Shown piece after piece: positions 1 through 7,978 of a DNA stretch of 7,978 bases (position 1 is the stretch's first letter; each line of letters opens with the position of its first letter). The DNA is from Clostridia bacterium (GTDB lineage Bacteria > Bacillota_A > Clostridia > Oscillospirales > CAG-382): positions 1 to 7,978 of the forward strand of contig JAFWWX010000177.1 of the NCBI GenBank assembly GCA_017517985.1, read 5' to 3'. Made by a program: the position numbers and the translations under genes. Below the pieces are notes generated by a model that saw nothing but the letters and a program-made list of their open reading frames with translations, ran no database searches and was not told where the DNA came from.

Positions 1-1164
1 CCTTATAGTGATTGGGCAAAATCAGATATTGAAAAAGCAATAGCATTAAATATAATAAATGTCGGTGGAAATTATAATTTCCCTGCTCCTATTACCCGTG
101 AAGAATTTTGCGAGCTTATATACAATTACTGCTATAATGTAGTTAAAGAGGTTGACACAGTTACAGGAGAAAACAAGTTTACTGATACAACAAATTCAAA
201 AATTATCAGATTAAATGCAATGGGAATTATCAACGGAAAATCCGAAACAGAGTTTGCACCTAATGACTTGCTTACCCGTGAGGAAGCTGCCGTTATTCTT
301 AACAGAATGGTAAACAAAACTATTCCTGTACCCGTAACAGAAATGTATTTTAACTTTGATGATGAAGCAAGTATTTCTGATTGGGCTTCTGATTCCATTC
401 AAGTAATGTGCAATATGGGAGTTATGAATGGTGTTGGAGAAAACAAATTTGCTCCACAAGACACATATACAACAGAACAGGCTATCGTAACAATCGTTAG
501 AGTATATGCAGCTCAATCCGCTAATATGGGAATTATCGGCGGAGCTGACGCACCAACAGAAATATATATCGGTGAAGATATTGAGGTTTCTGATTTCTAT
601 ATCGAGGAAGCATTTAAGCATACAAAAAAAGCCGGAGAGCTTGCCGGAACAAAAGAATTTATCTCAATGTATATTTCTGATGATGAAACAAAAACATCTA
701 TTGACAATCTTTCAAAGACAGATTTTGAAAAACCCGTCCAAATGTACTATGTTTCATATAACATTGATAAGGTTGTAGAATACTACAATAAAATGATTGC
801 AGAGGAAAATCCAGACGAAGAAATTGACGTCAAAAAATTCATAGAGCTTAACGGATTTAACCTTTCTGTCTTTGCTACTCAAATAAATGGTCGCTTTGGT
901 GCAAGAACACTTGCTGCTACAACTGTACTTACAAGCAGAGAGGGTTATATTATGCCAAAAGACTTTGAAAATGATTTCGGTATCTACCTGCAGTATGAGG
1001 GCGATTATTCAGCTCTTGTAACATTTAATAAGATTGGTGAGGGGGTTATCGAGGCTCGCATGCAGTTTGTGAGAAACGGTGAAAAAGCAGATATGCTAAT
1101 GTTTATGAGTGAAATTTACGACGCTCTTGGTGAGGAAAGTATAACAATCGGGAAAATTAAATAA
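1..1164 (+). CDS. SLH-domain cell-surface protein, 5' partial
   Basis: The frame is open from base 1 to TAA at 1162-1164, giving 387 residues; the true start and any signal peptide lie left of the window. Three S-layer-homology repeats are visible at about residues 2-45, 58-104 and 116-170, each with an SLH-like pattern of aromatic/Asp start, helix, 'G(I/V)(I/M)NG', 'F.P...(T/I)(R/T)E(E/Q)'. SLH repeats normally bind secondary cell-wall polysaccharide and hold exported proteins on the surface of Gram-positive cells. Residues 177-190 carry a 'GIIGGADAPT' motif resembling one in the beta subunit of Na+-pumping decarboxylases, but there is no membrane domain around it. Residues 194-387 form a C-terminal domain I do not recognise; it is probably the functional part. 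The next gene follows after 20 bases, so the two are likely co-transcribed. SLH assignment is confident; the molecular role is unknown. Confidence 0.85.
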   Translation, partial: PYSDWAKSDIEKAIALNIINVGGNYNFPAPITREEFCELIYNYCYNVVKEVDTVTGENKFTDTTNSKIIRLNAMGIINGKSETEFAPNDLLTREEAAVILNRMVNKTIPVPVTEMYFNFDDEASISDWASDSIQVMCNMGVMNGVGENKFAPQDTYTTEQAIVTIVRVYAAQSANMGIIGGADAPTEIYIGEDIEVSDFYIEEAFKHTKKAGELAGTKEFISMYISDDETKTSIDNLSKTDFEKPVQMYYVSYNIDKVVEYYNKMIAEENPDEEIDVKKFIELNGFNLSVFATQINGRFGARTLAATTVLTSREGYIMPKDFENDFGIYLQYEGDYSALVTFNKIGEGVIEARMQFVRNGEKADMLMFMSEIYDALGEESITIGKIK

Positions 1165-1180
1165 CCTGCAAGGAGGTTAT
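1161..1180 (+). promoter_or_regulatory. Hairpin over stop codon and ribosome binding site
   Basis: ATAACCT (1161-1167) and AGGTTAT (1174-1180) are perfect inverted copies separated by six bases. The left arm contains the TAA stop of the SLH gene and the right arm takes in half of the AGGAGG site of the next gene. If it folds in mRNA it would mask that site until a ribosome finishing the upstream gene opens it, giving translational coupling. The stem is short and AT-rich, so the effect may be weak. Confidence 0.4.
1171..1176 (+). promoter_or_regulatory. Ribosome binding site of the small membrane protein gene
   Basis: A consensus AGGAGG lies eight bases before the ATG at 1185, which fixes that start. 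It partly overlaps the right arm of the hairpin at 1161-1180. Confidence 0.85.
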
Positions 1181-1184
1181 TGAT

Positions 1185-1583
1185 ATGAAAAAGAGATATT
1201 TTATTATACCAATTCTAATAATTTTGATAGTATCAACTGTGCTGCTTATACATAAGAAAGATAAAGGAATAAACTCCCATATCGCCGTTATGTGTTCGGG
1301 AACAGAATATACAGAAGCCGAAAATATAGGATATTTGAAAATTGTATTTGATGATGAAAAAAAATCACCCAAAACCATTATGGTAAAAGACGAAGAATTA
1401 AAAAAAGAACTCTCAAATTCCAATATTGAGGATATAATAGGAGCACAAATTTTCTTGCATTTGCCTAATGATGTTATTAAAGAAAATCATATTGATACAA
1501 ACACGTTTGAGCCAACAAACCTTTTATTAAGCACATCTGAATACGATAAATACTACGAAATTGTAGATGTGTCATACAAATAA
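1185..1583 (+). CDS. Small membrane-anchored extracytoplasmic protein, unknown function
   Basis: This encodes 132 residues. It opens with MKKR, then a hydrophobic stretch at about residues 5-22 rich in Ile/Leu/Val, then HKKDK. This is a typical uncleaved N-terminal anchor with the remainder outside the cell. There is no lipobox Cys after the hydrophobic segment, so it is not an obvious lipoprotein. The exposed part (about residues 28-132) is hydrophilic with alternating beta-like stretches and one Cys (residue 37), and I do not recognise a family. The start is supported by AGGAGG eight bases upstream. It follows the SLH gene by 20 bases and runs straight into the terminator hairpin, so it is the last gene of that unit. 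Its pairing with an SLH protein suggests an envelope role, which is inference only. Confidence 0.7.
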   Translation: MKKRYFIIPILIILIVSTVLLIHKKDKGINSHIAVMCSGTEYTEAENIGYLKIVFDDEKKSPKTIMVKDEELKKELSNSNIEDIIGAQIFLHLPNDVIKENHIDTNTFEPTNLLLSTSEYDKYYEIVDVSYK

Positions 1584-1640
1584 AAAAACAACCGTGATAC
1601 ATGCCGCTTATGATTGCGAACTGTATCACGGTATTTTTTT
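1584..1640. terminator. Bidirectional intrinsic terminator between convergent units
   Basis: ACCGTGATACA (1591-1601) pairs perfectly over 11 bases with TGTATCACGGT (1622-1632) around a 20-base loop. On the right it is followed by ATTTTTTT (1633-1640). On the left an A-run (1582-1588) becomes a U-run in the opposite transcript. It therefore has the form of a Rho-independent terminator for the rightward SLH pair and for the leftward operon. Confidence 0.85.
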
Positions 1641-1722
1641 GCGGTCTATGTCACGCATTAGAGGGCGTTTTTTAAGGTTTTTGGATAAAGAGTATTACCC
1701 CTTTGGGATTTCACTCTAAAAC

Positions 1723-1737
1723 CCCTTATTTTAAGGG
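1723..1737 (-). terminator. Short hairpin at the end of the leftward operon, possible weak terminator
   Basis: CCCTTA and TAAGGG are inverted copies around three bases and cover the stop codon of the cysteine-rich VLP gene. In the leftward transcript the stem is followed by G and four U. This is weaker than the hairpin at 1584-1640, which is the better end point. The stretch from 1641 to 1722 holds no gene I can support. Confidence 0.3.
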
Positions 1738-2117
1738 AATAAATTGCCTTTATTCCGTGACATAAGACGCTGTTTTTGTTTTCGTTCCGCTGCTTGCCGT
1801 CTTGTGATGACTTTTCTGCAATCGGAACAATACTTTGACCTATTACTGTTTGGTATATAATATCTGCCACATATAGAACACAGTTTTGTGTTCGGTGGCT
1901 TCATCAGTTCAATATGCAAATCTTTATCAACAGGCAGTACGGCAACCTTAAACCATTTGCAGATAATATGTGAGTATGTTATAAGCTGGGGACATACGCA
2001 CGGATCGCCGTCGTCAAGCAAAATACAATGGCCGCCGTCGTAGTTGCAACAGAGCTTGCGAACAAGTGCATTTGTACGTCTGCTTTGCTTCGGGGAAAGT
2101 AATATTATTCTGCTCAT
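1731..2117 (-). CDS. Cysteine-rich VLP family protein
   Basis: This encodes 128 residues and matches the cysteine-rich VLP family of Firmicutes mobile elements by pattern. The N-terminal part has CC at 23-24 and further Cys at 31, 40, 42 and 53, around the 'CILLDDGDPC' stretch. The name-giving V-L-P sits at 60-62, followed by D-K-D-L-H. The second half has C80-x2-C83-x13-C97-x2-C100, a likely zinc-binding knuckle. The end (about 103-124) is Arg/Lys/Gln-rich and could touch nucleic acid. Its ATG overlaps the TGA of the 645-aa gene (ATGA), and a GGAG lies eight bases upstream within that gene's last codons, so translation is probably coupled. It is the last gene of the operon. The family usually occurs among conjugation genes of gut ICEs, and its biochemical role is not known to me. 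Confidence 0.85.
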   Translation of the reverse strand: MSRIILLSPKQSRRTNALVRKLCCNYDGGHCILLDDGDPCVCPQLITYSHIICKWFKVAVLPVDKDLHIELMKPPNTKLCSICGRYYIPNSNRSKYCSDCRKVITRRQAAERKQKQRLMSRNKGNLFP

Positions 2118-2206
2118 AGCTCCGGCTCCGATTTATGAGGTGCTTTTGAAGGTTCCTTTTTCTCTCCATGCTCTTTGGCAGAATTTTTTATCTGTTCCCG
2201 GATAGA
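2114..2206 (-). repeat. Shared tail-coding module, diverged copy 6
   Basis: This is the tail of the 645-aa protein: SIREQI, a Lys/Glu/Pro linker and SEPEL. It keeps the layout but has lost the GATTTGGAGGT end. A GGAGCCGGAG stretch before the ATGA overlap provides the ribosome binding site instead. Confidence 0.6.
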
Positions 2207-4051
2207 CGGCTTCGGCGGCTCGTTGTTTATTAAACCGTCAATCTGATTGAAATTCTGCTCCGTGTGCTTTTCTGCATTTGCAAGATAGTTAAAAGGCTCT
2301 CCTGCAAAAGTAATTTCTTTTTTGCATTTGAGCCTTGATAATACACCTGTTTTCAGTTCTGCAAATTCTGCGTAATTTTCCGTAGTGAAAGCTCCGTTTT
2401 CAAGCATTTGCTGTTGAGAAACTACCCAACCGTCGCCATACAGGAACGAATACATCTTGTGATTATCCGATATATGAATAACGGATTTATCTGAATTATC
2501 GTAGTATGAAGGCGCGTCAAACATAAAGTGATAATTTTCATTTGTTCCCAAGTACACTTTATCGTCAGTTCCTACAAGAGCAGTATATCCCTCGTAATTA
2601 CTTATTACAGCGCTCCTGATTCTGATATAGTCAAGAAATTCGGGCACTTCCTTAAATCCCACACTATCACAGTAATACGCCTTTTCTTCACCTTTGCCGT
2701 AAATAACAATAATATCCGATACACTCAAACTATGTCCTTTGAAATCCTGCGGAATATCTATATTAAATCTCTGGAAAAGTTTTTCCAATGTATCAGACGG
2801 CATATATGCTGCAGAATAAATCAAGTCATAATTGTTTTTGTCTGCAAATTCTCCTTTGCTATGCAGCCGTTCCAAACTTTCAAAACGGAAATCTCTTGTA
2901 TCATCACCCGATTTAAGCTGATAAATGAAATACTTAACAGGGATATATTTTTCCTCATACTCTTTGAGTTCAAGAGGAAGAACATCATCATCTGTCTGTC
3001 CTAAATCCGCAAGCATATCCTTGATATAATCGGTGCGTCCGTTATAAAGGCTTTCCGACAATTTCATTGCCATAGCCCCGTCAGAATATTTTGCGGCATA
3101 GTCCATATCGTGAGCAACAAAAAACCTATCAAGTGAATTTGCAAGCTCCATACTGCGCTTAATCTTATCATCAATAAAGCTATCGTCATTCTCAATAGGT
3201 GTTATTCTGCAGAAGTCAGGAATTTGTGCTGTGTTTCCGTCATAGTAGGTTGTATATGGCCCCTGTTCTTTCTCCAAAACGGCACTATCAACCATAATAG
3301 CCTTTCGTTCCTCTGCCTTGTCTTTTCCGTACTGCTCAAAATTGATGTAGTCCTCAATATCATAGAGTAATCTTAAATCAATTCCGTTTTCCTCCATAAC
3401 ATATTTACCGTAATCGTCCCAATCATACATATTATCAACCAAAGTATAACAATCGGTATTTTGAGCAAGATTTATAAGGTTTTCAATGGAATGTATATCG
3501 GCTTCGTCCTCCATAGCAGAAAGAAAGATTTTCATTTCTTCGGAATTGAGATTTTTAAGTAAGTACGCAAGATAGTTGAGTTCGTCAACATTTTCACCTG
3601 TTGCGATATAATCAGCCAAATCACCGTATGAAATAACATAACTTGAAACGGCATATTGTTCAGGCGAGGCATCTTTTGAAAGCCCAATATCATTAAGGAG
3701 CTTTTCAAAACGTTCAGGCTTTGCCGGAAGCAATAACCACTGTTCAGCTTGCGTCTCTTTGTTGTAAATCAACACAGAAAACGGCCCCGTGTCCTGTAAA
3801 AAGTTTTCCCGGTATTCGTCAAGCCTTTTGAAGAAATCTTCATTTTGGGTAGCATACCTTGTTAGAAGGCCTTTCACATTATCAAAATTACCTGAAATAA
3901 TATCATCAGCGATATTTTCCTGTGCTTCCATAACCTCTGTATGCTCCGAATTATATGTACTGCTGTGTTCCCTTAAATGAACATCAATATCAAAGGCTAA
4001 ATCCGTAGCGTCGTCCAACGCCATATCCTGATTTATATTATCTTTTGCCAT
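2114..4051 (-). CDS. Multidomain ArdA-like / YodL / DUF4316-like fusion protein
   Basis: This encodes 645 residues. Visible order: helical module at about 16-88; ArdA-like region at about 89-285, with 'DELNYLAYLL', 'LINLAQNTDCY', 'YGKYVMEE' and 'YINFEQYGKD' patterns; a second copy of the helical module at about 298-369; a YodL-type domain at about 371-476 ('IYQLKSGDDTRDFRFES', 'FKGHSLSVSDI', 'SVGFKEVPEF'); a beta-rich stretch at about 477-575 that I cannot name; and a DUF4316-like end at about 576-613 ('NQIDGLINN'). The basic tail (616-645) begins SIREQI and ends SEPEL, a diverged form of the tail on the other operon proteins. ArdA proteins mimic DNA and block type I restriction enzymes, so an anti-restriction role during transfer is plausible but not shown. 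The YodL domain is named after a Bacillus subtilis protein linked to MreB-dependent cell shape. The ATG is fixed by GGAGGT six bases upstream. Confidence 0.8.
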   Translation of the reverse strand: MAKDNINQDMALDDATDLAFDIDVHLREHSSTYNSEHTEVMEAQENIADDIISGNFDNVKGLLTRYATQNEDFFKRLDEYRENFLQDTGPFSVLIYNKETQAEQWLLLPAKPERFEKLLNDIGLSKDASPEQYAVSSYVISYGDLADYIATGENVDELNYLAYLLKNLNSEEMKIFLSAMEDEADIHSIENLINLAQNTDCYTLVDNMYDWDDYGKYVMEENGIDLRLLYDIEDYINFEQYGKDKAEERKAIMVDSAVLEKEQGPYTTYYDGNTAQIPDFCRITPIENDDSFIDDKIKRSMELANSLDRFFVAHDMDYAAKYSDGAMAMKLSESLYNGRTDYIKDMLADLGQTDDDVLPLELKEYEEKYIPVKYFIYQLKSGDDTRDFRFESLERLHSKGEFADKNNYDLIYSAAYMPSDTLEKLFQRFNIDIPQDFKGHSLSVSDIIVIYGKGEEKAYYCDSVGFKEVPEFLDYIRIRSAVISNYEGYTALVGTDDKVYLGTNENYHFMFDAPSYYDNSDKSVIHISDNHKMYSFLYGDGWVVSQQQMLENGAFTTENYAEFAELKTGVLSRLKCKKEITFAGEPFNYLANAEKHTEQNFNQIDGLINNEPPKPSIREQIKNSAKEHGEKKEPSKAPHKSEPEL

Positions 4052-4053
4052 AA

Positions 4054-4140
4054 TTACACCTCCAAATCGTTATTTTTACTCTTTGCAGGTTTCTTTTGAG
4101 TAGAAATATTTTTATTATCGGAAAGCTGCTTTTTTATTGA
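4054..4140 (-). repeat. Shared tail-coding module, copy 5
   Basis: This is the tail of the 173-aa protein, with GATTTGGAGGT at 4058-4068 and A-AAA-AAG in frame at 4129-4135. It is closest to copy 4, as expected for the paralogous pair (both have SIKKQLSD). Confidence 0.8.
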
Positions 4141-4575
4141 CGGTTTAGGCTCAAGCTCTATTGACTTATCACGGAATATGTCAAGATAGTTTTTTACATT
4201 TTCTTTCAATATTTCGTAATGCCTTTCTTTTGGTGCAGCCGCATACCATTCCGTTTTTCCGTCGTAAGCCCATATATGAGGCGCAACACCCTCTTTGAAA
4301 TTAGGATTGCCCGGAACAGGAAGCCTGCCCCAAACATCAAAAAACTGTATTGCGTGCTTATCTACAACGCCGTCTTTTCTGTTAATAACGGTTATTCGCA
4401 GTACATCATAGTTTCTGCTCACGCCGCTATCGTCAATCTGGCATTTTATTTTCAAATCACTGTCAAGTTCACCGTAGCACACGCCGGAGATATATTTTGT
4501 GTTTGAAAACATATCATCATTACCGAAAATCTTTCGCAATTCATTTTCAAGAAAATTGTTAGTTGACATTGCCAT
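4054..4575 (-). CDS. Unknown ICE accessory protein, paralogue of the upstream neighbour
   Basis: This encodes 173 residues and is clearly homologous along its whole length to the 170-aa protein of the gene just upstream (4578-5090). Shared blocks are 'NTKY', 'CYGELD', 'GVS..(Y/F)D.LR', 'INR.(D/E)G', 'VPGN.N...GV(A/S)PH(I/L)W' and a helical 'ILKE/ILRE...V' segment. Residues 1-140 look like one compact alpha/beta domain. From S146 the protein changes to the shared basic tail (SIKKQL...NNDLEV). I recall similar proteins in Firmicutes ICEs but cannot name a family. The first ATG at 4575 is chosen over the one at 4569 because GGAGGT (4582-4587) lies six bases before it. It starts two bases after the upstream stop, and its own tail carries the ribosome binding site for the 645-aa gene. 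Confidence 0.8.
   Translation of the reverse strand: MAMSTNNFLENELRKIFGNDDMFSNTKYISGVCYGELDSDLKIKCQIDDSGVSRNYDVLRITVINRKDGVVDKHAIQFFDVWGRLPVPGNPNFKEGVAPHIWAYDGKTEWYAAAPKERHYEILKENVKNYLDIFRDKSIELEPKPSIKKQLSDNKNISTQKKPAKSKNNDLEV
4058..4063 (-). promoter_or_regulatory. Ribosome binding site inside the DLEV codons, for the 645-aa gene
   Basis: GGAGGT within the last codons of the 173-aa gene lies six bases before the ATG at 4051. Confidence 0.85.
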
Positions 4576-4577
4576 AA

Positions 4578-4661
4578 TTAAACCTCCAAATCGTTTTGTT
4601 TACTTTTTGCAATCTTTTTTGGTTGCGTTTCTTTTTTATCGGAAAGCTGTTTTTTTATAGA
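4578..4661 (-). repeat. Shared tail-coding module, copy 4
   Basis: This is the tail of the 170-aa protein and the shortest linker. The common GATTTGGAGGT lies at 4582-4592, with a seven-base A-run in the SIKKQL codons (4650-4656). Confidence 0.8.
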
Positions 4662-5090
4662 TTGCTTTTTTTCCTTTTCCACCGAAAAATCCTTAAATAC
4701 ACTTGCATATTCTTTGACACTTTCTCTTAAAATGTCAAAATCCTTTGTTGTGGGCTGGTACAAATACCAAGCCAATTTTTCATCACTTATCCATAAATGC
4801 GGAGAAACACCGTCACGGGAATTGGTATTGCCCGGAACAAACTTTTTACCCCAAATTTCATTAAATCTGATAACTGTTGCGTCAATTTCACCCTCTGTAC
4901 GATTTATAAGTTCCAATCTCAAAGCGTCAAAATGACTGCTTACACCCATAGAAACAAATCGTGCTTTCATACGGATATTTTCGTCAAGCTCACCGTAACA
5001 ATTTCTGCCTACATACTTTGTGTTATTCAGAATTAAATCATCACCGAATATTTTTTTTAGTTCTTTTTCAAAAGTCGTAGCAATCATCAT
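4578..5090 (-). CDS. Unknown ICE accessory protein, paralogue of the downstream neighbour
   Basis: This encodes 170 residues, the upstream member of a tandem paralogous pair. The conserved core includes 'F.(K/N)EL(K/R)KIFG' at the N-terminus, 'NTKYVGRNCYGELD' (23-36), 'GVSSHFDALRLELINR' (49-64), 'VPGNTNSRDGVSPHLW' (85-100) and 'DILRESVKEY' (119-128). The body ends near residue 140 and is followed by the shared tail (144-170: SIKKQL, Lys-rich linker, NDLEV). No catalytic motif, metal site or membrane segment is visible, so it is probably a small cytoplasmic protein. The start has two adjacent ATG codons (5088-5090 and 5085-5087); the first is six bases from GGAGGT and is preferred. It begins two bases after the stop of the 536-aa gene. 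Function is unknown; context suggests a role in element transfer or establishment. Confidence 0.8.
   Translation of the reverse strand: MMIATTFEKELKKIFGDDLILNNTKYVGRNCYGELDENIRMKARFVSMGVSSHFDALRLELINRTEGEIDATVIRFNEIWGKKFVPGNTNSRDGVSPHLWISDEKLAWYLYQPTTKDFDILRESVKEYASVFKDFSVEKEKKQSIKKQLSDKKETQPKKIAKSKQNDLEV
4582..4587 (-). promoter_or_regulatory. Ribosome binding site inside the DLEV codons, for the 173-aa gene
   Basis: GGAGGT within the last codons of the 170-aa gene lies six bases before the ATG at 4575. Confidence 0.85.
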
Positions 5091-5092
5091 AA

Positions 5093-5185
5093 TTAAACCT
5101 CCAAATCATTCTTTTTATTTTTTGTCGGAGATGCCGGAACGTCAGCAGTCTTGCCTTTGTTTTCTTCAAGCTGCTTTTTTATGGA
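5093..5185 (-). repeat. Shared tail-coding module, copy 3
   Basis: This is the tail of the 536-aa protein, with the common GATTTGGAGGT at 5097-5107 and A-AAA-AAG in frame at 5174-5180. Confidence 0.8.
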
Positions 5186-6703
5186 ACGCTTTATACTTGC
5201 CGGCTCCATTGTAACCCTGTATTCTGTCGGAATAGTGCTTTTGTCGCCGTTATACCTTGCAGCCAAGCCCAGCGTTTTATTAGCGTGATTTATAAGGTCG
5301 GTAAGATTTTTAATGTTTTTATCTTTTTCTATCTCACTCATAAACCTATCGCACATTCCGTCGTCCATACGAAAAACAAGAGCTGAAAAGTAGTTCAGCT
5401 CGTCAAGACTTTCAGTAGGCTTTATAACAGAGTGTAGTTTTTCGCTGTATAGGTGAAAATCGTCAAACATATATTCACCCTGTACTGCGTGAGGTAAGAG
5501 CCCTATTTCTTCAAACGCTCTTGAAACGGTTTCTTTATCTGTCGGAAGATAAATCTTTACACTTTCAAAATCGCCTTTTAGATAATCTTCTGCATTGGTT
5601 ATTACTGCAATAAAATTGTAGTCCTTTTCAATGCCTTTGTTTTTATCAAAATTATCAAGCCTATCAAGATATGGCTGTATTTCGTCCTCCGACAAGTGAT
5701 GTTCCTTTTTCATACCGTGAATTATCTGTTTTACCTGTGCTGTGTTATTGGTACGGATATAATCGGCAATGTGTTTTTGAGCTTTGACGACATCATCAAA
5801 CATATTTGAATACTCGTCGCTTGTTTCCCGGAAAAAGCTATCTAAATCAACAGCAAATATTTCTGTTGTATCAATCAGCTTGTCGTCAACGTCCTCAATA
5901 AGAGAATTGGGGCGGAAGAAAGGAAGCTCTTTACAGTTCCATTCATCACCCGACGGGTATAAATATCCTTTTGATGTAAAAACGCCATGCTCTGCTTCAA
6001 TGATGTAATTAGCAAATGCAGTTGGGTTAATAGCGTCTTTGTAATGGTCGGGTAAACTGTCTAACATTCCCGAATCATAAATAAAATATAAACCGAGCTC
6101 TGTCGGATTGTCTTTATCCATTTCAAAAACATAGTAATCGTCATTATGTGTAAATTCTCTGATTTCCGCAAGGCTATTAAATTTTGCTGCGGTCTGCATT
6201 ACTGCGTCCAGCTTCATCATCTGAAAGCCGTCAAAGGTGTCAAGACGTTCTGCAGTTTTTGCAAGTTCGTGTATATCAGTACGAACATTTACAAGCGGAT
6301 TGAGGCTTTTTAATATACATTGGCACTCGTCAATAAAATACTGTCCTTGTTCCGCATCAGGAGGGAGGCCTATATCTTCAAGAGCATTTTCAATACGCTT
6401 AATATCTGCCGGAAATTCGAGCCATATCCCGGAAGTTTCTTTATTGCCGTTGTCATACTCGGAAGCATTTACAAGATAAAAACGAAATACTACATCTGTG
6501 GGTTTTTCCACAAATACCATACTGTTAGAAATAATTGCACTGTCAATTTGTTCCTGACTTAACCTGTGATAAAACTGATAGGCTTTTCCGTCATTATCAA
6601 CACCGTTTGCAATGTAGCCTTTATCAACCTTTTCAACATTGGTGAAAACCTGTTCCTGCCCGTGAATGTTGATTTTATAATATCTTTTATCCGGTTTACT
6701 CAC
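5093..6703 (-). CDS. Protein with two ArdA-like domains (probable anti-restriction)
   Basis: This encodes 536 residues from GTG at 6701-6703. That codon is eight bases after GGAGGT (6712-6717) and overlaps the end of the TTRAP gene by eight bases. A small beta-rich N-terminal region (8-57) is followed by an ArdA-like domain at about 72-255 ('WLEFPAD', 'ALEDIGLP', 'GLYFIYDSGML', 'GVFTSKGYLYPSGDEW'). Next is the helical module (278-352, 'AVDLDSFFRE...HIADYIRTNN'), then a second ArdA-like domain (362-498) with 'FEEIGLLP' and 'ESLDELNYFSALV'. This second domain lacks the middle segment found in the 645-aa protein. The shared tail (507-536) closes the protein. ArdA family members are acidic DNA mimics that inhibit type I restriction-modification; this protein is similarly rich in Asp/Glu apart from its basic tail. 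Anti-restriction activity is inferred from similarity alone. Confidence 0.8.
   Translation of the reverse strand: MSKPDKRYYKINIHGQEQVFTNVEKVDKGYIANGVDNDGKAYQFYHRLSQEQIDSAIISNSMVFVEKPTDVVFRFYLVNASEYDNGNKETSGIWLEFPADIKRIENALEDIGLPPDAEQGQYFIDECQCILKSLNPLVNVRTDIHELAKTAERLDTFDGFQMMKLDAVMQTAAKFNSLAEIREFTHNDDYYVFEMDKDNPTELGLYFIYDSGMLDSLPDHYKDAINPTAFANYIIEAEHGVFTSKGYLYPSGDEWNCKELPFFRPNSLIEDVDDKLIDTTEIFAVDLDSFFRETSDEYSNMFDDVVKAQKHIADYIRTNNTAQVKQIIHGMKKEHHLSEDEIQPYLDRLDNFDKNKGIEKDYNFIAVITNAEDYLKGDFESVKIYLPTDKETVSRAFEEIGLLPHAVQGEYMFDDFHLYSEKLHSVIKPTESLDELNYFSALVFRMDDGMCDRFMSEIEKDKNIKNLTDLINHANKTLGLAARYNGDKSTIPTEYRVTMEPASIKRSIKKQLEENKGKTADVPASPTKNKKNDLEV
5097..5102 (-). promoter_or_regulatory. Ribosome binding site inside the DLEV codons, for the 170-aa gene
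   Basis: GGAGGT within the last codons of the 536-aa gene lies six bases before the ATG at 5090. Confidence 0.85.
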
Positions 6704-6920
6704 TATCAAGCACCTCCGAATCTTCACCTGCAGAAAAATCTATGCTGTTAAATTCTGTATCTGTCATTCCTACAAGTTTTGAAATCAAAGCGGAAACAGT
6801 TTCCGTAAGCTCCGCATCTTCGATATGAGGCAAGGCCTGTTGTAAATCCATTATGAGCTTTATCCTATCTGATGTGTCGTACATATTTATAATTTTTGTT
6901 TCATCAACTGAAAATCTCAT
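6696..6920 (-). CDS. TTRAP-family putative transposon-transfer assisting protein
   Basis: This encodes 74 residues. The start 'MRFSVDETKIINMYDTSDR', a central 'DLQQALPHI.D.EL' and the 'KL..MTDTEF' segment fit the short TTRAP family found in Firmicutes conjugative elements. The usual size is similar. The family is named for context, and its activity is not established. The start at 6918-6920 is chosen because GGAGGT (6929-6934) lies eight bases upstream; longer in-frame starts up to 7061 run through the upstream gene. The acidic C-terminus replaces the SIKKQL tail, yet its SEV codons still contain the GGAGGT used by the next gene, which starts by GTG within this gene's last codons. Confidence 0.8.
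   Translation of the reverse strand: MRFSVDETKIINMYDTSDRIKLIMDLQQALPHIEDAELTETVSALISKLVGMTDTEFNSIDFSAGEDSEVLDSE
6712..6717 (-). promoter_or_regulatory. Ribosome binding site inside the TTRAP gene, for the 536-aa gene
   Basis: GGAGGT is read as part of S-E-V near the TTRAP C-terminus. It lies eight bases before GTG at 6703, which decides that start over the GTG at 6727. Confidence 0.8.
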
Positions 6921-6924
6921 AAAA

Positions 6925-7017
6925 TTACACCTCCAAATCATTATTTTTGTTTTTTGTTTTCTTTGCCGGAACGCCGCCGTCCTTTGCTGCATTATCTGCA
7001 AGCTGCTTTTTGATTGA
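6925..7017 (-). repeat. Shared tail-coding module, copy 2
   Basis: This is the tail of the 279-aa protein. It ends in the common GATTTGGAGGT (6929-6939), and the linker between the two conserved ends differs from the other copies. Confidence 0.8.
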
Positions 7018-7764
7018 CGGCTTTTTTGCGTGTATGAGAGCATCATACAAAGCATAGTCAAATGTGGTTATATTCCTTGTATCGCCGTAGTCCAAGCGAT
7101 AATGTATAAGCTCTATATGGTCTGATTTTTCCTTATCTGTCATACTGATAATTCGATTAGCAACAGCAGATTTTATTAAATCGTCAATATGTGTTTCAAT
7201 ATTTCCGACAGGGTAATTGCTTCTTTCGCTGCGTACCGATTTCAAAGTGTCTTTTAATTTTTCTGCGTCATTGGGTATATAATCTAAACCGATATATCTA
7301 CCGTAATATTTGTGTTCATCAGCAGAAAACCATTTGCCAAAATCCATAACCACGTCGCCGTTTTCATAATGCAGAATTTGACTATCGGCCTTTATTGCGT
7401 TTTTCTTTATATCTGCAACATTTTTTTCATAATCAAGCTGATACAAATTCCCGTAAATATTGTTATACTCGGTATAAGTTATTTCAAAAGCGTATGCAAT
7501 CGGGTTATCGCTTTTCTGCTCAAACCAATGTTTCCAAGCCACATTTGCAGATGTGTTTTTTATGAAAACATCTTTTTCAAAAAAGCAATGTGTACCGTGA
7601 GTACGGGAAAGCCATAGCATATTTCTGTCCTCTGCATTATCTGACATAGCAGCTTTTTGAATGGCGTCTATATCATACTTGAAATCCTGCTTGTAATACT
7701 GCGTATGAGCCTGCATAATTTGCCTTAAAGTATCTATCAAATCAACATTCTCAAATTTCTGCAT
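6925..7764 (-). CDS. Unknown ICE accessory protein with W-L-S-R-x-x-G-T-H-C motif
   Basis: This encodes 279 residues. The N-terminal 45 residues look helical. A conspicuous block follows at 51-64 (WLSRTHGTHC then FF), with 'AYAFEITYTEY' (90-100) and 'GNLYQLDYEKNV' (105-116) after it, suggesting one mixed alpha/beta domain to about residue 170. A helical region extends to about 245. The shared tail occupies 250-279 (SIKKQL, linker, NNDLEV). I have an impression of similar proteins in other gut Firmicutes ICEs but cannot assign a named family, and His/Cys within the block could be functional or structural. The ATG lies seven bases after GGAGGT (7772-7777) and three bases after the previous stop. 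The tail supplies the ribosome binding site for the TTRAP gene. Confidence 0.75.
   Translation of the reverse strand: MQKFENVDLIDTLRQIMQAHTQYYKQDFKYDIDAIQKAAMSDNAEDRNMLWLSRTHGTHCFFEKDVFIKNTSANVAWKHWFEQKSDNPIAYAFEITYTEYNNIYGNLYQLDYEKNVADIKKNAIKADSQILHYENGDVVMDFGKWFSADEHKYYGRYIGLDYIPNDAEKLKDTLKSVRSERSNYPVGNIETHIDDLIKSAVANRIISMTDKEKSDHIELIHYRLDYGDTRNITTFDYALYDALIHAKKPSIKKQLADNAAKDGGVPAKKTKNKNNDLEV
6929..6934 (-). promoter_or_regulatory. Ribosome binding site inside the DLEV codons, for the TTRAP gene
   Basis: GGAGGT is contained in the last codons of the 279-aa gene, eight bases before the ATG at 6920. It decides the TTRAP start. Confidence 0.85.
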
Positions 7765-7767
7765 AGA

Positions 7768-7866
7768 CTATACCTCCAAATCCTGCGATTTCTTTTTAGT
7801 TGTTTTCTTCGGTTTAGGCTCGTCAGCTTTCTTTTCTTTGTCCTTTTCAAGCTGTTTCTTGATAGA
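7768..7866 (-). repeat. Shared tail-coding module, copy 1
   Basis: This encodes SIKKQL, a Lys-rich linker and SQDLEV plus stop. The 11-base GATTTGGAGGT at its end (7772-7782) is identical in copies 1-5. The SIKKQL codons here are ATC AAG AAA CAG, without the long A-run of copies 3-5. Confidence 0.8.
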
Positions 7867-7978
7867 GGGCTTTTTGCCTGTTTTCTTCTCAATGGCCTTT
7901 TCGGTCTTAACCGACTCTGCCAGGTCGAGAAGCGAAATAGGCGTGCCGGATTTTGCTGTTTCTTCAAGTTCTGAAACA
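7768..7978 (-). CDS. C-terminal end of an ICE protein with DUF4316-like terminus, 5' partial
   Basis: Seventy codons are visible before TAG at 7768-7770; the rest lies beyond the right edge. The fragment begins VSELEETAKSGTPISLLDLA, a pattern I associate with the C-terminal part of DUF4316-type and related large ICE proteins. A Lys/Glu-rich connector follows, then the shared tail SIKKQL...SQDLEV (33 residues from the Ser). The parent protein cannot be identified from this piece. It is the most upstream visible member of the leftward operon, and its final codons contain the GGAGGT that serves the 279-aa gene. Confidence 0.7.
   Translation of the reverse strand, partial: VSELEETAKSGTPISLLDLAESVKTEKAIEKKTGKKPSIKKQLEKDKEKKADEPKPKKTTKKKSQDLEV
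7772..7777 (-). promoter_or_regulatory. Ribosome binding site inside the DLEV codons, for the 279-aa gene
   Basis: GGAGGT (on the - strand) is read as the last codons L-E-V of the upstream partial gene and lies seven bases before the ATG at 7764. Confidence 0.85.

Follow-up and report, generated by a model that had tools for sequence, protein, structure and literature searches.

A shared C-terminal tail in a minus-strand operon

We analysed a stretch of 7,978 nucleotides (hereafter the window) on contig JAFWWX010000177.1 of the Clostridia bacterium assembly GCA_017517985.1, which appears to be the end of a conjugative element of the Tn1549 family and encodes, on the minus strand, an operon whose proteins share one C-terminal tail. 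The operon runs in the order partial open reading frame (ORF), 279-amino-acid (aa) protein, TTRAP, 544-aa protein, 170-aa protein, 173-aa protein, 645-aa protein and Cys_rich_VLP. Six of these eight proteins end in the tail, which is 27–34 residues long and has the form S-I-[KR]-x-x-[LI], a Lys-rich linker and, in five of the six, a final DLEV. The partial ORF (7768..7977) is represented by its C-terminal end, leaves the window at 7977 and carries the tail at 7768–7866 (..SIKKQLEKDKEKKADEPKPKKTTKKKSQDLEV). It is followed by the 279-aa protein (6925..7764, tail 6925–7017, ..SIKKQLADNAAKDGGVPAKKTKNKNNDLEV), whose family also occurs in an Enterococcus vanB element, and by the 544-aa protein (5093..6727), which matches ArdA in two stretches and ends in SIKKQL..NDLEV (5093–5185, ..SIKKQLEENKGKTADVPASPTKNKKNDLEV), the tail start having been placed by hand at the second S of SIKRSIKKQL. 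The 170-aa protein (4578..5090, tail 4578–4661, ..SIKKQLSDKKETQPKKIAKSKQNDLEV) and its 173-aa relative (4054..4575, tail SIKKQL..NDLEV at 4054–4140, ..SIKKQLSDNKNISTQKKPAKSKNNDLEV) come next, and the 645-aa protein with ArdA, YodL and DUF4316 (2114..4051) ends in SIREQI..SEPEL (2114–2206 including the stop codon, ..SIREQIKNSAKEHGEKKEPSKAPHKSEPEL). The two proteins without a tail are TTRAP (PF14203, 74 aa, 6696..6920), an in-operon negative for which we chose the ATG of MRFSVDET.. as start, and the 3' neighbour Cys_rich_VLP (PF14194, 1731..2117), whose start overlaps the stop of the 645-aa gene.

All six minus-strand ORFs end as a preliminary description of this sequence had proposed. When the last 40 residues of each protein were shuffled, the core fell within the first 25 at a frequency of 0.001 to 0.010 per protein, so tails on six of six proteins cannot be put down to chance. 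The same description held the six to be otherwise unrelated and drawn from at least four folds or families. Four body families are indeed represented, namely ArdA (544 and 645 aa), YodL with DUF4316 (645 aa), the 170/173 family and the 279 family, but the six are not all independent, as the 170- and 173-aa proteins are paralogues (48% identical) and the 544- and 645-aa proteins both contain ArdA. The partial ORF, whose body lies outside the window, resembles by eye the C-terminal end of a large ArdA protein in a Monoglobus element.

AlphaFold models of two of the proteins suggest that the tail is probably disordered. The model of the 279-aa protein has a predicted local distance difference test (pLDDT) score of 86 overall, falling to a mean of 52 over residues 251–260, where a helix (251–257) coincides with the core, and to below 50 over residues 261–279. 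The 170-aa model (82 overall) scores below 50 over residues 138–149 and 151–170, with a low-confidence short helix at 146–150. The two models differ in secondary-structure make-up, a comparison made on composition and not on superposition, and no PDB match at E ≤ 0.001 was found for either.

The probable conjugative element around the operon

The assignment to the Tn1549 family follows from gene content. The gene set of Tn1549-type elements (ArdA/YodL polyvalent protein, 279 family, TTRAP and VLP) occurs together in the window; the families are the same as in these elements, with the order varied and the set expanded by the 544-, 170-, 173- and 645-aa proteins. A tblastn search with the 279-aa protein found relatives of nearly full length in 14 plasmid records from Enterococcus. 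The region read on one of them, pMG2200, encodes PcfB, VirD4, VirB4, VirB6, a YodL protein, a 279-family protein, TTRAP, VLP, a relaxase, MobC and a vanB cluster, and we take it to be Tn1549. A vancomycin-resistance transposon of that name figures in the available text of PMC5512222.

The element end (window 1580–5025) has a 98% identical counterpart in genome G481 (stretch L212), in which a Relaxase (PF03432) gene and an ORF that looks MobC-like by eye lie about 20 kb from the tail operon (L211); a coupling protein was not found in G481. Genes read as BlaI/BlaR1-like (L211, about 7672–9947) are located between this relaxase and the tail operon and are possible element cargo. Another copy, 97.7% identical to window 3680–6839, lies on a contig of an Oscillospiraceae metagenome-assembled genome (L001, genome G001). 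On this contig a fragment read as VirB6-like (1–542) runs into the TTRAP gene in a chimeric-looking join, and the 645-aa gene runs into a C-terminal end read as serine-recombinase-like (3187–4123), from either an assembly chimera or a rearranged element.

Distribution and carriers of the tail

We surveyed the C-terminal ends of 68 hand-picked coding sequences (CDS) from annotated elements on pMG2200 and in Monoglobus and Vescimonas (23, 19 and 26, respectively). In each of the three elements, PcfB, an ArdA/YodL polyvalent protein and a 279-family protein are tailed (nine CDS; three proteins in the vanB element of pMG2200), with PSIRxxL or PSVRxxL followed by a basic tail, and one MobQ relaxase has a look-alike end (QPIKEVL). 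The other 58 CDS have no tail and include VirD4, VirB4, VirB6, PrgI and topoisomerase 3, as well as DUF4315, DUF4366-like proteins, peptidases, TTRAP, VLP, MobC, PF03432-type relaxases and DUF6017. In all three elements the PcfB gene is directly upstream of the VirD4 gene and overlaps it by four bases. The C-terminal end of PcfB, a DUF3801 protein (PF12687), is itself the tail, whereas the cargo bodies in the window are not DUF3801; we found no description of the function of PcfB/DUF3801 in the literature searched. The last ~37 positions of the DUF3801 model weakly match, by way of the tail, an ArdA protein, a DUF3848 protein and the partial ORF of the window. We set aside the reading of that ORF as a PcfB (weak match to the DUF3801 end, model positions 95–131, E 0.012) because its upstream residues fit a polyvalent C-terminal end by eye.

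When the tail of the 544-aa protein was used as query in an exact-word search of a large protein set, the yield was limited to five candidates and three close relatives, and genomes were searched instead. A profile built from the six window tails and one tail of L003 matched 14 of 391 Clostridia genomes in 25 places at E ≤ 0.01, the G001 places being the window copies and one G025 place a training row. The earlier suspicion that the tail is widespread in integrative and conjugative elements (ICEs) of the gut agrees with the present findings. As to its co-occurrence with conjugation genes, DUF3801, present in 78 of the 391 genomes, occurs in 10 of the 14 tail-positive genomes versus 68 of the 377 others (p = 3e-5, kinship ignored). 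Among the four tail-positive genomes without DUF3801, G186 has a VirB4-like gene (P-loop_TraG), G386 has a coupling protein on a tail contig, and G001 has the VirB6-like fragment beside its tails and a coupling protein on another contig. In G196, a relaxase homologue alone is found on the tail contig, and a coupling protein was not found.

We wrote a tail rule and applied it to fetched stretches around such loci. Among the stretches fetched first it fits 59 of 634 ORFs, compared with 149 of 31,700 shuffled C-terminal ends and 7 of 1,861 internal windows; in another 20 elements, picked by their PcfB, it fits 31 of 800. In the following, class 1 denotes every fetched stretch that does not belong to a second element class described below, and includes chromosomal flanks and L182, which adjoins a class-2 stretch. 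Fifty-one of 62 PcfB proteins are tailed by rule and nine more by eye, leaving two without (L074 and L078). The 75 other flagged ORFs comprise several kinds of bodies, a few of them flagged by chance. Representatives by Pfam include ArdA; ArdC-N with an M78 peptidase; YodL, LPD25 and DUF4316; DUF3846 with ArdA or DUF4314; DUF3849; LPD34; DUF5688; a methylase-helicase giant; a MobA/MobL relaxase; and, below the cut-off, DUF3848 and SSB. The 279 and 170 families are also among the carriers. Body families were formed by single linkage, which lumps 43 multi-domain proteins, and are not a count of folds. By the rules used, two class-1 elements with a long PcfB (G149 and G213) have the tail on PcfB alone, a flagged 123-aa ORF in G149 being taken as chance; in G408, PcfB is tailed and a relaxase is flagged under a looser rule only. 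Tail look-alikes on several short ORFs and two relaxase homologues were likewise judged by eye to be due to chance. Two 279-family relatives (P0014 and P0015) end in LGKKLDI and have no tail.

The core variant tends to be common to PcfB and the cargo of one class-1 element. For example, PcfB of G050 has PSLLKKL and its cargo PSLLAKL or PSLIAKL, with the same variants on separate contigs in G040 and G027; ESVMTQL goes with PSVLKAL, TSVLEKL and SSALEKL in G177, and ESVRDRL with ESLKDRL, PSLKERL and PSLVARL on contig C13 of G066. In a hand tally of the third core residue in 17 of 30 elements (nine had no flagged cargo and four no detected PcfB; cargo judged to be flagged by chance was omitted), the cargo agreed with a basic PcfB residue in nine cases and disagreed in one, and agreed with a non-basic residue in six and disagreed in one (p = 0.004). 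As sister elements were counted apart, this agreement is suggestive.

Relaxases are classical substrates of type IV secretion. Four of nine MobA/MobL relaxase homologues are tailed, three by rule (KPSVIAQL, KESIIEKI and KQSVIAQI) and one by eye (KPSVIAQI); they come from two Clostridia genomes (G393 and G253), in stretches with two PcfB proteins each. The other five are untailed. Two of these, the MobQ relaxases of a probable mobilizable element (L041, 757–2337; L134, 17241–18821), end in QPIKEVL..QDMEL, a look-alike of the ICE tail that perhaps mimics the ICE signal to ride its machine. Among 47 homologues of PF03432-type relaxases no convincing tail was found: two were flagged for class 1 and judged chance, one was flagged for class 2, and L062 and L162 have look-alike ends.

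A second element class with a different C-terminal end

Some homologues of the 170-aa protein have no class-1 tail (P0043–P0046). Relatives of this family occur, besides G001, in five of the 391 genomes, within another kind of conjugative element (class 2). The class-2 element of G165 encodes a PF02534 coupling protein, a MobL relaxase and a Toprim/DUF3991 protein, and PcfB was not found in any class-2 stretch, G165 included. ArdA, DUF4314, YodL, DUF3849, DUF3846, LPD28, SpoVG, DUF7659 and 170-family proteins of these elements have an end of their own, consisting of a Glu/Gln/Asp-containing stretch and then, close to the terminus, a short Met-containing motif of the type [MI]-x-[ML] (e.g., GGMTM, LNMGM, FKISM, GMELK, GMSMDSM, GGMSMG, AMSM, MDMTM and GMSMT). 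Class-2 ends are neither basic nor Lys-rich, and the positive charge that the preliminary description had stressed is not a general feature. Two of six class-2 Toprim/DUF3991 relatives end in NFIMTM or NFTMTM. On contig C180 of G165 (L174, L179, L180 and L181), 17 ORFs fit the Met-containing end, and the relaxase ends in LGIKMG. We found no description of this code in the literature examined.

A first class-2 rule was drawn up from a reading of L173–L183, ahead of the reading of ten more elements that were fetched by way of a VirB6 relative. It fits 44 of 412 ORFs in these ten elements and, over the class-2 stretches as a whole, 63 of 554. Outside class 2 it fits 8 of 1,252 ORFs, and the control counts are 18 of 5,358 for internal windows and 787 of 55,400 for shuffles. 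In a second pair of rules, the class-1 tail is recognised on 148 of 1,498 class-1 ORFs and 1 of 557 class-2 ORFs, and the class-2 end on 15 and 82, respectively. The backgrounds of the two rules (class 1 and class 2) are 51 and 121 of 10,834 internal windows and 423 and 840 of 61,650 shuffles.

Six families (ArdA, YodL, DUF4314, DUF3846, DUF3849 and the 170 family) are present in both classes and form a natural tail swap, which is the most telling evidence in this analysis. With the second pair of rules, their class-1 members comprise 32 with the class-1 tail, none with the class-2 end and 8 with neither; their class-2 members comprise none, 20 and 8. Every recognised tail therefore matches the class of its element (p = 7.9e-15 with the 16 untailed members left out and 3.8e-12 with these counted as not class 1, kinship ignored in both). 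The 16 include cut or fused copies as well as tails seen by eye that the rule missed (L097, L164, L167 and L183). Earlier rules recognised fewer members and, leaving aside L185, a class-1 locus that had wrongly been counted there as class 2, gave no mismatch either. Coupling proteins, found in four class-2 stretches, group in a single clade, separate from the other 30 rows of the tree (support 100, with a long-branch warning), three of which (L213, L215 and L216) are from unassigned elements. The tail thus changes with the coupling protein of the element, that of class 2 being known from four elements. Genomes G343, G177 and G075 contain both classes, which indicates that the tail follows the element and not the host.

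A candidate docking or secretion signal

As far as sequences can tell, one tail is shared by unrelated bodies, is found on PcfB next to VirD4 and on some relaxases, is absent from the channel subunits read, is constrained at the protein level and is exchanged between element classes; taken together, these features are best explained by a signal for docking or secretion that addresses the coupling apparatus. The tail probably acts as a C-terminal address, specific to the element, that directs proteins to the type IV coupling apparatus and serves the co-transfer of cargo with the DNA. The Lys-rich, probably disordered extension would present a short helix-forming core, [KR]-P-S-[IVL]-[RKL]-x-x-[LI], and this core would dock on the coupling apparatus, that is, on the VirD4-like protein of the CD1115 family, its partner PcfB/DUF3801 or both. 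Anti-restriction and other early-entry proteins docked in this way could be loaded for transfer into the recipient alongside the DNA, and elements with a different coupling protein would put a different C-terminal signal on the same kinds of protein. We infer that VirD4 or PcfB reads the tail and that proteins with the tag do cross into the recipient. The earlier suggestion that the tail is kept for a shared partner, probably the type IV coupling system, is well supported by PcfB beside VirD4, the predicted early-entry proteins, the tailed relaxases and the swap, except that DLEV belongs in part to a ribosome-binding site.

Another explanation takes the tail as a side effect of translational coupling, its C-terminal codons embedding the ribosome-binding site of the next gene and the rest being a spread DNA cassette with no role as protein. 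Five window tails do have GATTTGGAGGTN in common, followed by a stop codon that is TAG in the partial ORF and TAA in the other four, with GGAGGT embedded in the DLEV codons (for example AAT GAT TTG GAG GTT TAA at 5093..5110, minus strand), and a Shine-Dalgarno (SD)-like word overlaps the tail codons in 71 of 122 class-1 tails. However, the overlapping words fall in all three frames (34, 23 and 14), and the word follows the stop in 12 tails and is absent from 39. In 20 class-2 ends inspected by eye, SD-like words are mostly past the stop or not nearby. The core, about 20 codons upstream, keeps its residues although its codons are free. Its serine is encoded by TCT in 45 of the 122 tails, TCA in 29, TCC in 25, TCG in 17 and AGT in 6, and this freedom argues that the core is not driven by the DNA. 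The rule demands the serine and the hydrophobic positions, and near-copies among the 122 were kept; K or R at −2 (113 tails), P at −1 (82) and K at +9 (79) are conserved without being imposed by it. With five serine codons in use and these unimposed positions conserved, the ribosome-binding site does not, as far as the codons show, account for the core, for which we reject a pure origin of this kind, and as an explanation of the whole tail it is very improbable. For the DLEV end such an origin is still likely, and this end is at least partly the ribosome-binding site (GGAGGT) of the next gene. The part of the tail that is maintained as protein is the core [KR]-P-S-[IVL]-x-x-x-[LI].

Closer to the proposed address signal is the possibility that the tail docks proteins to the relaxosome, to PcfB or to DNA in the donor, or later in the recipient, and is itself no secretion signal. 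PcfB, encoded beside VirD4, has the same tail, the tail is Lys-rich, and sequence cannot separate recruitment from secretion. On the other hand, MobC and the PF03432-type relaxases, which make up the core relaxosome of Tn1549-type elements, are untailed. Nor is the class-2 end rich in Lys where the same families carry it, so that mere attraction to DNA by charge is no common function; we rejected such charge-based tethering as a common role because class-2 ends are not basic. We regard docking without secretion as unlikely. A degron for a host protease, or another host-factor motif that limits cargo levels, would fit a disordered C-terminal tail, which is typical of degrons. Yet the two tails occur in the same genomes (G343, G177 and G075) according to element class, and a host factor would not sort them by element class or coupling-protein clade, which leaves this explanation with hardly any probability.

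Several observations weigh against the address signal that we prefer. PcfB is not known to be transferred, so that the tail it carries could serve docking and not translocation. The tail is missing from nearly all PF03432-type relaxases, which must be recruited otherwise, and none of eight class-2 MobL relaxases is flagged, some of them being partial and one ending in LGIKMG. The second pair of rules, on which the swap counts depend, was formulated with every stretch already in view. Kinship does not enter these counts, and the eight untailed members in each class are not all truncated. The 15 class-1 ORFs on which the class-2 rule fires include two MobQ relaxases. In addition, PcfB and cargo differ in core variant in G193 and on contig C18 of G066.

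Going further, we lean towards a broader proposal that Gram-positive elements use at least two interchangeable C-terminal codes, each read by its own clade of coupling proteins, and that acquired cargo is given the local code. The whole anti-defence kit (ArdA, ArdC, YodL, DUF3846, DUF3849, LPDs and methylase-helicases) would then be injected along with the DNA, and an element's set of transferred proteins could be predicted from its code alone.

Relation to known systems

The C-terminal module XVIPCD of effectors of the Xanthomonas type IV secretion system (X-T4SS) is needed for interaction with VirD4 and for translocation (PMC10025392) and resembles the present tail in being one C-terminal module common to different proteins. 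As described there, however, XVIPCD has ~120 residues with several motifs and a Gln-rich end and is carried by killing toxins, whereas the tail has ~30 residues with a six-residue core and is carried by anti-defence and DNA-processing proteins of Gram-positive conjugative elements; at 27–34 residues, the window tails are, judged by length, not XVIPCDs. The C-terminal signals of Agrobacterium VirF and VirE2 are short and positively charged, and 19 to 50 residues move a reporter (PMC10025392). The class-1 tail is likewise short, C-terminal and positively charged. It differs from the Arg consensus given there in its PSIRxxL-type core and Lys-rich linker, and class-2 ends are not basic. By eye, Arg in the window tails is confined to SIREQI and the position just before the core of the 544-aa protein, although PcfB tails do contain Arg.

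Polyvalent proteins (ArdA, ArdC, YodL and LPD domains), including those of Tn1549-like elements, have been predicted to be delivered with the DNA, and ArdC of pSa and TraC1 of RP4 are stated to be transferred (PMC5512222). The tailed bodies make up much of this repertoire. The account of polyvalent proteins in the available text of PMC5512222 describes no shared C-terminal tail or element-specific signal, and the tail would supply their missing targeting element. F-plasmid conjugation delivers SSB, PsiB and Par proteins that aid the plasmid in the recipient (PMC8406263). That system is Gram-negative and needs engagement of the relaxosome with TraD, and the available text of PMC8406263 mentions no shared C-terminal tag. 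We found neither tail described in the open-licence papers searched, nor in the available sections of a 2025 review of type IV secretion systems (PMC12857230).

The tail bears on how Gram-positive conjugation machines pick their protein substrates and on whether anti-defence proteins travel with the DNA. A short, exchangeable tag together with a natural swap makes this directly testable, and the tag gives a sequence-based listing of predicted transferred proteins and offers a role for PcfB/DUF3801.

Other features of the window

The copy in G481 matches window 1–1164 in addition to 1580–5025, with ~165 bases in place of the 415 between (window 1165–1579), and a 132-aa ORF at window 1185–1583 is mostly missing from it. 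Window 1–1164 encodes an SLH-domain protein with NMGIIGGADAPTEIYI, which is like a motif of the oxaloacetate decarboxylase beta subunit (Pfam OAD_beta, E 0.0068, below the cut-off).

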